Under the pieces are notes generated by a model. That model made no database searches, was not told the DNA's origin, and saw only the letters and a program-made list of their open reading frames with translations. DNA of 64,000 bases from Cypionkella sp. GTDB lineage: Bacteria; Pseudomonadota; Alphaproteobacteria; Rhodobacterales; Rhodobacteraceae. This document shows, piece after piece, positions 35,695-41,820 of the stretch. The DNA lies in assembly GCF_028290025.1 (NCBI RefSeq), contig NZ_JAQGKQ010000112.1, positions 1 to 64,000 of the forward strand, read 5' to 3'. The translations under genes were made by a program, and so were the position numbers. The stretch's first letter is position 1. Each line of letters starts with the position of its first letter.

Positions 35695-36507
35695 TTAGAC
35701 GGCACTGTCGCGCTGATAAATCCAGTCGTGATCGGAGTCATTTTGAAACCGCCAGTTGCGGCGCGGGCCTGCCATGACGTTGAGGTAATACATCTCGTAG
35801 CCATAAGGCGCACCGCAGGGGTGATGGCCTTTGGGCACCAATGTGACGTCGTGGTTTTTCACCGCCATCACCTCGTCCAGCGAGCCATCTTCGGTATAGA
35901 CGCGCTGAATGCCAAAACCCTGCGCCGGGTTGAGCCGCATGTAATAGGTTTCCTCCAGATAGGTCATCCGCGGAAAATCGTCTTCATCATGGCGGTGGCT
36001 GGGATAGGAGGACCAGTTGCCTTGCGGTGTGAAGACTTCGGTCACCAGCAAACTGTCAGCAACATCAAGGGCTTCCATGGCGATGTTGTTTACAAAACGA
36101 GTGTTGGCTCCGATGCCGCGCTGGGTCAGTGTGATGCCAGCGGGGCCAATTTGCGCGGCGGCATGGCCGGATTTTCCCGGTGCAGCGCAGACGGCCAGCG
36201 TGCAGGCTGTGGTGGCTGTGGCATTCCAATCGCTGTCGTTTGGCACATAAAGACAATGGGGCGGCGTCTTCTCAAACACGTCCATGCGGTCGCCCAAAAC
36301 GCCCCAATCCTGGCCTGCGGCTTGAATACTGGCCTTGCCTTCGACTAAAACGAGGATGACTTCGCGATCACCGGTCAGTTCGGCCGCAGTTTCACCCGCA
36401 GCCAACCGATACAGCCCGAAGCCGACGTAGCCCCAACCGGCGTTCTGCGGGGTGATGTCATGTACCTTGCCGGAAACACCGTTAGGTTTGCGCAAAAGAT
36501 CGGCCAT
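35695..36507 (-). CDS. iolB: 5-deoxy-glucuronate isomerase
   Basis: NAGWGYVGFGLYRLAAGET...YPSHRHDEDDFPRMTYLEETYYMRLNPAQGFGIQRVYTED...VPKGHHPCGAPYGYEMYYLNVMAG. Confidence 0.96.
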   Translation of the reverse strand: MADLLRKPNGVSGKVHDITPQNAGWGYVGFGLYRLAAGETAAELTGDREVILVLVEGKASIQAAGQDWGVLGDRMDVFEKTPPHCLYVPNDSDWNATATTACTLAVCAAPGKSGHAAAQIGPAGITLTQRGIGANTRFVNNIAMEALDVADSLLVTEVFTPQGNWSSYPSHRHDEDDFPRMTYLEETYYMRLNPAQGFGIQRVYTEDGSLDEVMAVKNHDVTLVPKGHHPCGAPYGYEMYYLNVMAGPRRNWRFQNDSDHDWIYQRDSAV

Positions 36508-36549
36508 GTTCTTTTCTCTTTCTCAAATGCCAGTTTGATCGCACGAGGA

Positions 36550-38373
36550 TCAGTCCACAAGCCGTTGATCTTTTTGTTTTTCTTCGTAACTGACGCGCGC
36601 CTGATTAACCTCAGCCCGCGCCGAGACGGCAGGCACGCCAACATCCCACCAGCTGCCGCCGGCATCGGTACCGGGCCATGGATCGGTATCAATCACAATA
36701 ACTTGCGGGATTTTAGCACCCTTGGCAGCGGTGAGGGCTGCTTCAAGCTCTGCAATCGTGCTGACTTTCACGGCATGTGCGCCCATCGCGGCGGCATGGG
36801 CGGTAAAGTCGATGTGGCTGGGGTTAACGTGGTGGGACTGGTCCAGCAGATTGTTGAACCCTGCCCCGCCGGTGGCTTTTTGCAGGCGGTTGATACAGCC
36901 ATAGCCGCGATTGTCGGTGATCAATACGGTAAAGCCGATGCCCATCATAACGGCCGTCGCGAGTTCGGAATTGGCCATCATATAGCTGCCATCGCCGAGC
37001 ATGCAGATCACATCGGCATCAGGCCGCGCCATTTTAATGCCTAAAGCTCCGGCAATTTCGTATCCCATGCAGGAAAAACCATACTCCATATGATAGCCGC
37101 CCGCGGGCGCGTCCCATATTTTGTGAAGCTCTCCCGGCATCGTGCCAGCCGCTGACATCACCACGCTGGCCTTGGTGGCGGTACGCTGCACGGCGCCGAT
37201 CACCTGCATATCGCTCGGTAGCGCGTTGCTCGTCGGTGCGGCTTTAACCGCAGCAGTGGCCGCAGCCCAATCAGCCTGCAGACTAAGGATAGAGGGCCAC
37301 TTCTGATTTCCTAGTGACTTTCCAATAGCTTGCAAGGCCACCTTCGCATCCGAGGTTAAGTTAATCGCGCCGTGTTTGTAAGAATCATAGGCCGCGACGT
37401 TGATCGACAGTATCTGGCGGGTCGGATTTTTGAACAGAGTCCATGAGGCGGTGGTGAAATCCTGAAACCGGGTGCCAAGCCCGATCACCAAATCGGCGTT
37501 TTCGCAGACGGTGTTGGCGCTGGCAGCGCCGGTCACGCCGACCGGCCCGAAGTTCAAAGCGTGGTCGTGATCAAGGCTGGATTTGCCCGCCTGAGTTTCA
37601 ACAACCGGGATGTTATGAGCGCTGGCAAAGGCCGCGAGATCTGCCTCGGCACCCGAGTAGATCACCCCACCCCCTGCTACGATCACCGGGTTTTTCGCTG
37701 ACTTGATCGCAGCAATCGCCTCGGCCAATTCATCAGCATCGGGTTCGGGGCGGCGGATTTTCCAGACCTTCGGCGTGAAAAAAGCTTCAGGGTAATCAAA
37801 GGCTTCAGCCTGCACATCCTGACAGAAGGCCAAGCAAACCGGGCCGCAATCGGCGGGGTCGGTCAAGACGCGAAAGGCACGCGGCAGCGCGGTCAGGATA
37901 TGTTCCGGGCGGGAAATCCGGTCAAAATAGCGACTGACCGGGCGGAAGCAATCATTGACGCTGACCGTGCCGTCGTTGAAATCTTCAAGCTGCTGCAGAA
38001 CGGGATCTGGTGCGCGATTGGCAAAGACATCGCCCGGAATAATCAGCAATGGCAAGCGGTTGGCAAAGGCCACACCCGCCGCCGTCACCACATTCAGCGC
38101 GCCCGGCCCGATAGATGTCGTCACCGCCATCGCACGGCGACGCTTTTTCGCCTTGGCAAAAGCAATCGCAGCATGGGCCATGGTTTGCTCGTTATGGCCA
38201 CGCCACGTCGGTAGGCTGTCGCGCACACCGTGCAAAGCCTCGCCAATTCCAGCGACATTGCCATGACCGAAAATCGCCCAAACGCCTTCAATAAACCGCT
38301 CACCCTCGTCGGTCATTTGGACAGAAAGCCAACGCATCATGGCTTGGGCTGCTGTTAAGCGGATGGTTTTCAT
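36550..38373 (-). CDS. iolD: 3D-(3,5/4)-trihydroxycyclohexane-1,2-dione hydrolase
   Basis: TPP-enzyme fold; MKTIRLTAAQAMMRWLSVQMTDEGERFIEGVWAIFGHGNVAGIGEAL; neighbours iolB and iolC. Confidence 0.96.
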   Translation of the reverse strand: MKTIRLTAAQAMMRWLSVQMTDEGERFIEGVWAIFGHGNVAGIGEALHGVRDSLPTWRGHNEQTMAHAAIAFAKAKKRRRAMAVTTSIGPGALNVVTAAGVAFANRLPLLIIPGDVFANRAPDPVLQQLEDFNDGTVSVNDCFRPVSRYFDRISRPEHILTALPRAFRVLTDPADCGPVCLAFCQDVQAEAFDYPEAFFTPKVWKIRRPEPDADELAEAIAAIKSAKNPVIVAGGGVIYSGAEADLAAFASAHNIPVVETQAGKSSLDHDHALNFGPVGVTGAASANTVCENADLVIGLGTRFQDFTTASWTLFKNPTRQILSINVAAYDSYKHGAINLTSDAKVALQAIGKSLGNQKWPSILSLQADWAAATAAVKAAPTSNALPSDMQVIGAVQRTATKASVVMSAAGTMPGELHKIWDAPAGGYHMEYGFSCMGYEIAGALGIKMARPDADVICMLGDGSYMMANSELATAVMMGIGFTVLITDNRGYGCINRLQKATGGAGFNNLLDQSHHVNPSHIDFTAHAAAMGAHAVKVSTIAELEAALTAAKGAKIPQVIVIDTDPWPGTDAGGSWWDVGVPAVSARAEVNQARVSYEEKQKDQRLVD

Positions 38374-40268
38374 AGATTTTCTCCTCGGGCGGCGTCCCAG
38401 ATACCGCAGAGGCGGCGGAAGTTTTCGGCCATCGTGGCCACGGCTGTCGCGTCGTCAATTTTTCCGGCAATCCACTGGCGACCGACATCGGCGTGGATGG
38501 TGCGGCCCACCGCGAAACCTTTGACCAGTGGAAACTCGGCGGCAAGTTTAAAGGATGATGCCAGTTCTGCCTCGGTTTGGCCAAGCCCCAAGATCACGAT
38601 GCCTTGGGTATGTGCATCGCGCAAGGTGATCGCATCGCAGGTCGCAGCCCAAGCGGCACGGGTCTGCATCGGCTCTAGTTTCCACCAATCTGGGCAAATG
38701 CCGATGTCATAAAAGCGGCTGATCAGCTTGGCGTTGGTGTGATCATCGACGGGACCAACTTTCGATGGAATGATTTCAAGCAGCATTTCCAAACGGTTAC
38801 GCCGACACGCATGGAACAGCCGGGTGATCACCGCTTCCTGCTCGGCTTGCATTTCGGGTTGATCATCGGGGTGACAGAAGCACAGGACCTTGACCACGTT
38901 CTCCAGCGCCCATTCGGAAAGACCGCCAAAATCGGGGCCAATCTCAGGCTCCAGCGTCAACGGGCGAGAGCCGGGCCATTCCACCGGGCGGCCGATCCAC
39001 AGACCCTGGCCCGAGGCTTTGTGAAGCGCCGATTTGCCGAGGCGGTTGTCGCAAAGCAGGCCGTAGCCATCGCGGCCTTGCGCAACTTCCACTGTAGCTT
39101 CGAGGCACAACTCTTTGAAGCGAGCTATATTTTCAGGATTCGCGCCGGGAATTTCTTCAAGTTGTGAGCGATGGTCGTAGGCGAAGGCGCGCACTTGCGT
39201 CCACTGTTTGCGGCGGTTGGTGGACCAGTGAATCTGCTCTAACTCGGCATCTTTGCGCAAGGCCGGGGTTTTGACGCCGCGCTCTAGGAAGAAATTAAGT
39301 TCCTCGAGTGACGGATAAGCTGGGGTGCAGCCGTGGCGAGACACCGCAAATGCGCCGCAGGCGTTGGCGTATTTCAGTGCGACGGGCCATTTTTCGCCAT
39401 CAAGCCAGCCTTTGGTGAGGCCCGACATGAAGCCGTCGCCTGCGCCGAGCACATTGAAGACTTCAATGGGAAAGCCGGGGCCGGTTTGGCCATGATCAAG
39501 GCTGTCGGGAATTGCGCCCTCAAAGGCTGCGGCACCTGCGGCACCGCGTTTGCACACCAGCGTGGCGTTCGAAACTTGACGGACAGCGCGCAAGGCTTCG
39601 ATGGTGTTGGTCGAGCCGCCTGCGATGTGGAATTCTTCTTCGGTACCGACTATCAGATCGAAATAATGTAAGTTGGACTGCAACTTAGCGGTTACAGCCG
39701 TGGATTCTATAAAACGGCTTTCACCGTCGCCATGGCCTGCCAGACCCCACAGATTGGGGCGATAGTCGATGTCTAACGCGGTTTTCGCACCATGTTTGCG
39801 CGCCAATTGCAACGCCTTCAGCACGGCGGCTTCGGTATTGCTGTGCGACAGATGCGTGCCGGTGACGATGATTGAGCGGGTGGAGGCGATGAAATCTTCC
39901 TCGATATCGTCTTCGCACAGGGCCATATCAGCGCAGTTTTCACGGTAGAAAATCAGCGGGAACTGGGTTTCATCGCGGATACCTAGGATCACCAAGGCCG
40001 TCAGGCGCGTCGGATCGGTTTTCACCCCCTGTACATTGACGCCTTCGCGCAGCAATTCTTCGCGAATAAAGCGGCCCATATGTTCGTCGCCGACCCGGGT
40101 GATCAGGGCCGATCTCAGCCCCAAACGCGCGGTGCCTGCCGCGATATTGGTCGGAGAGCCGCCGATGTATTTCTGAAAACTCGCCATATCTTCCAGCCGA
40201 CCGCCGATTTGCGCGCCGTAAAGATCGACCGAGGATCGGCCAATGGTGATGGTGTCGAGCGTTTTCAT
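38370..40268 (-). CDS. iolC: Bifunctional 5-dehydro-2-deoxygluconokinase / DUF2090 aldolase-like (IolC-IolJ fusion)
   Basis: PfkB kinase N-terminus (GRSSVDLYGAQIGGRLEDMASFQKYIGGSPTNIAAG...NVLGAGDGFMSGL) plus about 300-aa C-terminal DUF2090-like region. Confidence 0.93.
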   Translation of the reverse strand: MKTLDTITIGRSSVDLYGAQIGGRLEDMASFQKYIGGSPTNIAAGTARLGLRSALITRVGDEHMGRFIREELLREGVNVQGVKTDPTRLTALVILGIRDETQFPLIFYRENCADMALCEDDIEEDFIASTRSIIVTGTHLSHSNTEAAVLKALQLARKHGAKTALDIDYRPNLWGLAGHGDGESRFIESTAVTAKLQSNLHYFDLIVGTEEEFHIAGGSTNTIEALRAVRQVSNATLVCKRGAAGAAAFEGAIPDSLDHGQTGPGFPIEVFNVLGAGDGFMSGLTKGWLDGEKWPVALKYANACGAFAVSRHGCTPAYPSLEELNFFLERGVKTPALRKDAELEQIHWSTNRRKQWTQVRAFAYDHRSQLEEIPGANPENIARFKELCLEATVEVAQGRDGYGLLCDNRLGKSALHKASGQGLWIGRPVEWPGSRPLTLEPEIGPDFGGLSEWALENVVKVLCFCHPDDQPEMQAEQEAVITRLFHACRRNRLEMLLEIIPSKVGPVDDHTNAKLISRFYDIGICPDWWKLEPMQTRAAWAATCDAITLRDAHTQGIVILGLGQTEAELASSFKLAAEFPLVKGFAVGRTIHADVGRQWIAGKIDDATAVATMAENFRRLCGIWDAARGENL

Positions 40269-40323: not shown

Positions 40324-40339
40324 TGGAATAATTATTCCA
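40324..40339. promoter_or_regulatory. Candidate IolR/RpiR-family operator at the iolCDB promoter
   Basis: TGGAATAATTATTCCA, perfect 16-bp palindrome (GGAA-N6-TTCC), between iolC and its regulator gene. Confidence 0.7.
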
Positions 40340-40385
40340 TTTTGGAGTGAAGCAAAAGCGTTTTCTTTGGCGGCGTCACCGTAGC

Positions 40386-41213
40386 TTACCCGCGCGCCGA
40401 ACCCACCGCGACGGCCAGTGCAATCGCCAGTGCGAGGGTCGCCGATAGCGAGCGGAACGCACCAAAATCCACCTCTGGGACGGTTAGAATCGCATCGCCT
40501 GCACGGGCGAGAGGGCTGGTGATACGGTCGGTCAGCGCCACCACCGGCAGGCCCTGATCGCGAGCGTGTTGCGCCAAAGCGATGGTTTCGTCAGAATAGG
40601 GCGCAAAGGTAATTGCCAAAACCGCATCGCCGGGACGTAGAGCGTGGCGGTGATCAAGCTTGCCGGTACCTTCGTGCAGCATGGCGGGAACCGACATCTT
40701 GTCAAACACATAGGCGAGATATGCAGCCACCGGAAAGGCACGGCGCAGGCCGATTATATGCACGGTATCGGCGGCGGCGAGCAGCACTACGGCTTGCGCC
40801 AACGCAGCCTCATCCGCGGATTTCGCCAATGCCTCCAGCGACAAACGGCCGGCTTCAATGAATTCGCCTAGCAATGCCGAAGGGGTGCCAGCGCCGGTTT
40901 CCTTCAGATTTTTCAGGCGCGTAGAATAGTCGGGGAAACCCGGCGCATAGGCATCACGGAACAGCTTTTGCATCTCGGAAAAGCCAGAATAGCCCAAAAT
41001 TTGGCAAAACCGCATCAGGGCAGAAGGCGGCACATCGGCACCCGCGGCAAGTTCGGCGACGGTGGATACCGCAATGCGGTCGATATTGGCGGCAATATGA
41101 TCGGCACATTGGCGCAATCGCCGCGGCAGGCCCTCGGAAATTCCAGACAAACGCTCGCGGAATTCCTCGATTGTGGTTGGCGCTGCAAGGTCTGCGGTGT
41201 CAAGTGTGGTCAT
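40386..41213 (-). CDS. MurR/RpiR family transcriptional regulator, probable inositol catabolism regulator
   Basis: N-terminal HTH_6 (LPRRLRQCADHIAANIDRIAVSTVAELAAGADVPPSALMRFCQILGYSGFSEMQKLFRDA) and SIS domain; adjacent to the iol genes. Confidence 0.9.
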   Translation of the reverse strand: MTTLDTADLAAPTTIEEFRERLSGISEGLPRRLRQCADHIAANIDRIAVSTVAELAAGADVPPSALMRFCQILGYSGFSEMQKLFRDAYAPGFPDYSTRLKNLKETGAGTPSALLGEFIEAGRLSLEALAKSADEAALAQAVVLLAAADTVHIIGLRRAFPVAAYLAYVFDKMSVPAMLHEGTGKLDHRHALRPGDAVLAITFAPYSDETIALAQHARDQGLPVVALTDRITSPLARAGDAILTVPEVDFGAFRSLSATLALAIALAVAVGSARG

Positions 41214-41296
41214 ATATTTGCGATCATTAGGACGGGCATTCAGGCGAAAGCGATCAACTGAGCCGGTTTCCGGCATTTGCGCCAAAGCTAACGGAA

Positions 41297-41312
41297 TGGA
41301 ACAAACATTCCA
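41297..41312. promoter_or_regulatory. Candidate IolR/RpiR-family operator upstream of the regulator gene
   Basis: TGGAACAAACATTCCA, same GGAA-N6-TTCC spacing as 40324-40339. Confidence 0.65.
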
Positions 41313-41316
41313 ACAG

Positions 41317-41820
41317 TTATTTCGCTGGCTTCGGGTAGAGTCGCGCCAAAGCCTCAACCACCGGGGGCGTGACGAATTTTGAGATATCGCCTCCGAGCCG
41401 TGCGATTTCCTTCACCAGTTTCGAGGCGATGGCCTGCCTGCGTGCGTCGGCCATCAGGAACACGGTTTCCACCGAAGCATCCATCGCGCGGTTCATGCCA
41501 ACCATCTGAAACTCATACTCAAAATCCGCAACCGCACGCAGGCCGCGCACGATCACGCTGGCACCAACATCACGAGCGCAATCGATCAGCAGGTTTTCAA
41601 ACGGGTGCACGATGATCTCACCACCGGTTTTGGCAACGATACCTGCACATTCATCTTTGACCATTTTCACGCGTTCTTCGAGCGTGAAGGCCGGGCCTTT
41701 GCCATCGTTGATCGCGACGCCAATGACGAGGCGGTCCACAAGCGCCATGGCGCGTTGGATGATGTCGACATGGCCCAGAGTGATCGGGTCAAACGTGCCG
41801 GGGTAAAGGCCAATGCGCAT
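41317..41820 (-). CDS. coaD: Phosphopantetheine adenylyltransferase
   Basis: MRIGLYPGTFDPITLGHVDIIQRAMALVDRLVIGVAIN...VIVRGLRAVADFEYEFQMVGMNR. Confidence 0.97.
   Translation of the reverse strand: MRIGLYPGTFDPITLGHVDIIQRAMALVDRLVIGVAINDGKGPAFTLEERVKMVKDECAGIVAKTGGEIIVHPFENLLIDCARDVGASVIVRGLRAVADFEYEFQMVGMNRAMDASVETVFLMADARRQAIASKLVKEIARLGGDISKFVTPPVVEALARLYPKPAK

Follow-up and report, generated by a model that had tools for sequence, protein, structure and literature searches.

The motif GGAA-N6-TTCC was defined, and IolR named, in Caulobacter by Boutte et al. 2008 (PMC2597717). In that species deletion of iolR derepresses idhA, ibpA and iolC, mutation of one motif derepresses iolC, and the iolR transcript does not respond to inositol; the motif was also seen in other Alphaproteobacteria (PMC2597717). 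For Sinorhizobium, the part of the Kohler 2011 model that is described in PMC8877191 has sites at both iolR and iolC and release of the regulator by 2-deoxy-5-keto-D-gluconate 6-phosphate. An iolR mutant of Ensifer aridi shows raised transcription of iolR but not of iolC (PMC8877191). Here we describe a related arrangement in a stretch of 64,000 nucleotides from Cypionkella sp. (the window), where two 16-bp palindromes flank a gene for an RpiR-type regulator. With high confidence we regard both palindromes as operators of the regulator encoded between them, predicted to be an IolR that represses iolR, iolC and iolG. Since both the motif and IolR are already defined in Caulobacter and Sinorhizobium, the locus represents a well-supported further case of the described IolR type.

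The iol locus and its two palindromes

The minus strand carries, in order, coaD, an operator, the rpiR-type gene, a second operator, iolC, iolD and iolB. The features are as follows.

41317..41820, minus strand: coaD, same-strand neighbour upstream of iolR (TIGR01510, 186 bits, above cut-off)
41297..41312, no strand: predicted IolR operator at iolR, TGGAACAAACATTCCA (TGGAATGTTTGTTCCA on the coding strand); exact sequence, with conservation of the upstream site in relatives
40386..41213, minus strand: iolR, 275-aa RpiR-type regulator (HTH_6 and SIS, both Pfam matches above cut-off; orthologues at iol operons)
40324..40339, no strand: predicted IolR operator at iolC, TGGAATAATTATTCCA; exact sequence, with conservation of the downstream site in relatives
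38370..40268, minus strand: iolC, 5-dehydro-2-deoxygluconokinase fused to a DUF2090 aldolase-like domain (NCBIfam NF047869.1, 706 bits, and TIGR04382, 403 bits, above cut-offs)
36550..38373, minus strand: iolD (NCBIfam TIGR04377, 888 bits, above cut-off)
35695..36507, minus strand: iolB (NCBIfam TIGR04378, 332 bits, above cut-off)

The regulator has the N-terminal HTH_6 domain (PF01418, 38.4 bits, cut-off 28.3) and C-terminal SIS domain (PF01380, 67.4 bits, cut-off 25) of the RpiR/MurR family, and its gene lies immediately 5' of iolC-iolD-iolB, as it does in relatives with an alphaproteobacterial IolR. TGGAATAATTATTCCA is a perfect palindrome within the rpiR-iolC gap, its end 55 bp from the iolC ATG (40268). 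In TGGAACAAACATTCCA the 5-bp arms are perfect and the centre is imperfect. This operator is situated between coaD, whose stop codon lies 4 bp away, and the rpiR-type gene, whose ATG (41213) is 83 bp from the operator end.

A first-pass annotation of this DNA had placed matching 16-bp sites at 40324-40339 and 41297-41312, one at the iolC promoter and one at that of the RpiR-type gene. Both sequences are exact at these coordinates, and both sites are intergenic and 5' of their respective genes. The same annotation gave GGAA-N6-TTCC as the type of site bound by rhizobial IolR, and the literature bears this out (PMC2597717, PMC8877191), but the motif is too loose for scanning, for which TGGAA-N6-TTCCA is needed. 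GGAA-N6-TTCC has three matches in the window against 1.13 expected, a number reached in 11 of 100 shuffles. Alone it is uninformative, because its 50 matches across the genome compare with 41 for the reversed control. The genome scan with TGGAA-N6-TTCCA that the annotation had proposed found four places in the 4.3-Mb assembly, against one for the reversed control. Two are the reported window sites. The other two were rejected as operators, being within the unrelated coding sequences of a fabH-like gene (contig C41) and a PAS-type regulator (contig C89). The whole-genome scan is pattern matching only, and matches with two mismatches are those among the matches listed. Further candidates rejected were AGGAATATGTATTCCA at C2:114032, within a large polyketide-synthase-like reading frame, and a match at C15:15952, positioned between two convergent genes. 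Within coaD itself, AGGAACACGGTTTCCA at 41456-41471 (the third 14-mer of the window, 41457-41470) has one arm mismatch and also occurs in the sister species; this is probably coding conservation and less probably an auxiliary site.

Conservation, promoter geometry and mode of control

Relatives were sampled from 298 genomes of the same family together with named genomes and plasmids, and conservation was counted over 114 loci at which a relative of the regulator is encoded, some of them near-duplicates. The site upstream of the regulator is exact at 92 of the 114 loci and has one mismatch at 12 more; the downstream site is exact at 80, with one mismatch at 20 more. When identical contexts are merged, 89 upstream and 85 downstream sequences with the site remain. 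Exact arms occur at the N6 spacing only, with none at N2-N5 or N7-N11 in the regions of the 114 loci. The consensus centres differ, being TGGAATATTYGTTCCA at the iolR operator and TGGAATAAAWATTCCA at the iolC operator. The same operator with the same gene order is present in Rhizobium, Thalassospira, Nitratireductor, Sinorhizobium, Aureimonas, Asticcacaulis and Sphingobium records. A search of the class with TGGAATAWWTATTCCA matched 7 of 385 genomes and was uninformative. On this comparative sequence evidence from about a hundred related bacteria, the palindromes are very probably real switch sites of the described IolR kind.

Conservation also outlines a promoter at each gene, and is the basis for both assignments because a generic sigma-70 scan of the region yielded no promoter.

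41285..41313, minus strand: predicted iolR promoter, with -35 TTGGAA (41313-41308), a 17-bp spacer and -10 TAGCTT (41290-41285)
40350..40367, minus strand: conserved block 5' of the iolC operator, AAAGAAAACGCTTTTGCT, with CTT conserved at a fixed distance from the operator

In coding-strand view, the TTGGAA of iolR overlaps the left arm of the operator, and in operator-aligned sequences a TA follows it by 16-18 bp in 75 of the 89 distinct relatives. On the iolC side, 82-92% of the 85 distinct operator-aligned relatives have CTT at -19 to -17. The block at 40350-40367 is probably the -35 region, preceded by A-rich sequence, and the position of CTT upstream of the operator would place the -10 within the operator. 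In some species the same block contains a GAAA-N4-TTTC-like inverted repeat, which may be a second protein site. The geometry suggests that the rpiR operator overlies the -35 box and that the one at iolC overlies the -10 region, and promoter overlap at both genes would fit repression through steric blocking of polymerase. An activating or dual role of IolR at iolC, in place of simple repression, would be in keeping with the Ensifer aridi mutant, where iolC did not rise (PMC8877191), and with the conserved difference between TGGAATATTYGTTCCA and TGGAATAAAWATTCCA. However, we consider this improbable given the apparent position of the iolC operator downstream of the -35-like block and over the -10 region, which suits repression, and given the derepression of iolC in the Caulobacter iolR deletion (PMC2597717).

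The regulator and its further targets

The window protein is 62-93% identical to iol-locus regulators of Cypionkella, Cereibacter, Pannonibacter, Rhizobium, Nitratireductor and Thalassospira, with which it shares a tree group, and orthologous genes stand first at iol operons across the Alphaproteobacteria. Identity is 38% to the iol-locus protein of Sinorhizobium sp. K101 and 37% to that of Asticcacaulis, these being the proteins compared and not the characterised Caulobacter and S. meliloti IolR themselves. Both belong to neighbouring (sister) clades and have the same site type at the same places. By protein comparison, the window protein is in an IolR subclade separate from Sinorhizobium-type and Caulobacterales-type proteins (37-38% identity).

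The genome encodes two RpiR paralogues, on contigs C26 and C57, that are 28-32% identical to the window protein. As RpiR relatives that adjoin inositol-type genes, namely iolE and iolD paralogues, these would be candidates if another regulator bound the sites and the local gene controlled something else. This is very improbable, as the C26 and C57 clusters contain no IolR-type operator (TGGAA-N6-TTCCA with 0-1 mismatch), the operators flank and co-occur with orthologues of the local regulator over about a hundred loci, and the two paralogues pair together in the tree outside the window-protein clade.

A third predicted target of the local IolR lies elsewhere in the genome. The best iolG match in the assembly is on contig C22, separate from the window contig, and carries TGGAATATCAGTTCCG about 40-42 bp 5' of the ATG; a weaker symmetrical TAGAATATACGTTCTA is found, among the matches listed, about 116 bp upstream of TGGAATATCAGTTCCG. 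The sister species (G248) has TGGAATATCAGTTCCG unchanged as its first iolG site and a perfect TGGAATAAAAATTCCA as its second; iolG of a further relative (G122) has TGGAATATACGTTCCG and the SDR-iolG operon of another (G105) has TGGAATAGAAGTTCCG. The palindromes at the iolR, iolC and iolG promoters follow GGAA-N6-TTCC, as for other alphaproteobacterial IolR proteins. That the palindromes are chance or structural repeats, as the lack of enrichment of the looser 14-mer might imply, has a negligible probability and is already refuted by the comparative data, given the rarity of the 16-mer, conservation at N6 only and the independent iolG site.

The first-pass annotation held that its reading would fail if further sites near iolG, iolE or inositol transporter genes were lacking, an outcome avoided because iolG carries TGGAATATCAGTTCCG. 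The expectation was borne out for iolG, and in this assembly (89.8% complete) we saw no perfect site beside a transporter or beside the two iolE copies. In the same assembly the transporter-site search returned only TGGAACGAAAATTCTA, with one mismatch, on contig C17 (C17:24553-24568; L232 19554-19569). The name IolR, also proposed there, is supported by the HTH and SIS domains, the iolC-iolD-iolB context, the conserved operators and the iolG site. Its prediction of iolC repression plus autoregulation fits the conserved operators at both promoters, and autoregulation differs between published species.

The putative IolR-like TGGAACGAAAATTCTA has an ABC sugar transporter operon on one side and, on the other, a divergent LacI-type gene. 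In the relative G105, a perfect TGGAACATAAATTCCA (L219 3801-3816) is found just 5' of a LacI-type gene, with iolG-like and iolE-like genes a few kb away, and from this site IolR may control secondary LacI regulators.

In the sister species iolE sits between iolD and iolB, in the order iolC-iolD-iolE-iolB. The window has only 42 bp (36508-36549) separating iolD from iolB, and about 1 kb with iolE is missing. The sister IolE, searched against the whole assembly, matched only paralogues of 35-36% identity, on C26 and C57; the loss of iolE is provisional because this is a draft assembly of 118 contigs that is 89.8% complete. The C26 and C57 loci (L022, L023) are paralogous clusters in which iolD-like and iolE-like genes are grouped with SDR, dehydrogenase and aldolase genes. 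Each cluster encodes an RpiR regulator of its own, and these two regulators are 74% identical.

Predicted mechanism and comparison with described systems

By analogy with described systems, the mechanism would be repression with autoregulation, and the published species differ in details. When inositol is not being broken down, IolR would occupy the -35 box of its own promoter and the -10 region of the iolC promoter, with iolG as its third target, and bound IolR would block RNA polymerase. When the pathway is active, a phosphorylated intermediate made by IolC would bind the SIS domain and release IolR from the iol genes; literature on other species suggests that this effector is probably 2-deoxy-5-keto-D-gluconate 6-phosphate. 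Counting against this model are the Ensifer aridi iolR deletion without a rise in iolC, the inositol-insensitive iolR of Caulobacter, the low identity (about 37-38%) to the Sinorhizobium and Caulobacterales-type proteins and the lack of a perfect transporter or iolE site in this assembly.

A tentative extension, which we think doubtful, is that the two operators are tuned differently in a conserved manner, that of iolR having an asymmetric centre and -35 overlap and that of iolC a symmetric centre and -10 overlap, giving graded or differently timed control, within a patchwork pathway whose missing IolE step would need to be supplied by clusters outside IolR control. If true, such tuning would allow one repressor to exert graded or differently timed control over itself and the pathway.

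Our analysis extends the described IolR regulon, with strong comparative support, to a Cypionkella-like member of the Rhodobacteraceae. With the tighter 16-bp consensus and predicted promoter overlap, genomes can usefully be scanned for IolR targets, for which GGAA-N6-TTCC is too loose. Understanding of the IolR system is otherwise unchanged, and the finding is correct but ordinary.

The locus resembles that of Caulobacter crescentus IolR (CC1297; PMC2597717) in its RpiR-type iol regulator, in the palindrome and its spacing, and in having sites at iolC and at the inositol dehydrogenase gene. However, Caulobacter has two motifs at the iolC promoter, where here there is one, its IolR targets include the ABC transporter operon ibpA-iatA-iatP, and its iolR is not inositol-regulated. 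Here one site is at iolR itself and two, one of them weak, are at iolG. With Sinorhizobium meliloti and Ensifer IolR, as far as they are described in PMC8877191, the locus shares an RpiR-like repressor, sites 5' of iolR and iolC and the order iolR-iolC-iolD. In that account iolY precedes iolR, whereas here coaD does; the protein subclade also differs (~38% to a Sinorhizobium iol-locus IolR), and the operon here is without iolE. Predicted IolR loci also occur in Rhodobacterales and on rhizobial plasmids (Cypionkella, Cereibacter, Rhizobium daejeonense and others), with an orthologue of 62-93% identity and the same two operators or close variants. The annotated rhizobial loci keep iolE, and otherwise there is no essential difference between these predicted loci and the window locus.
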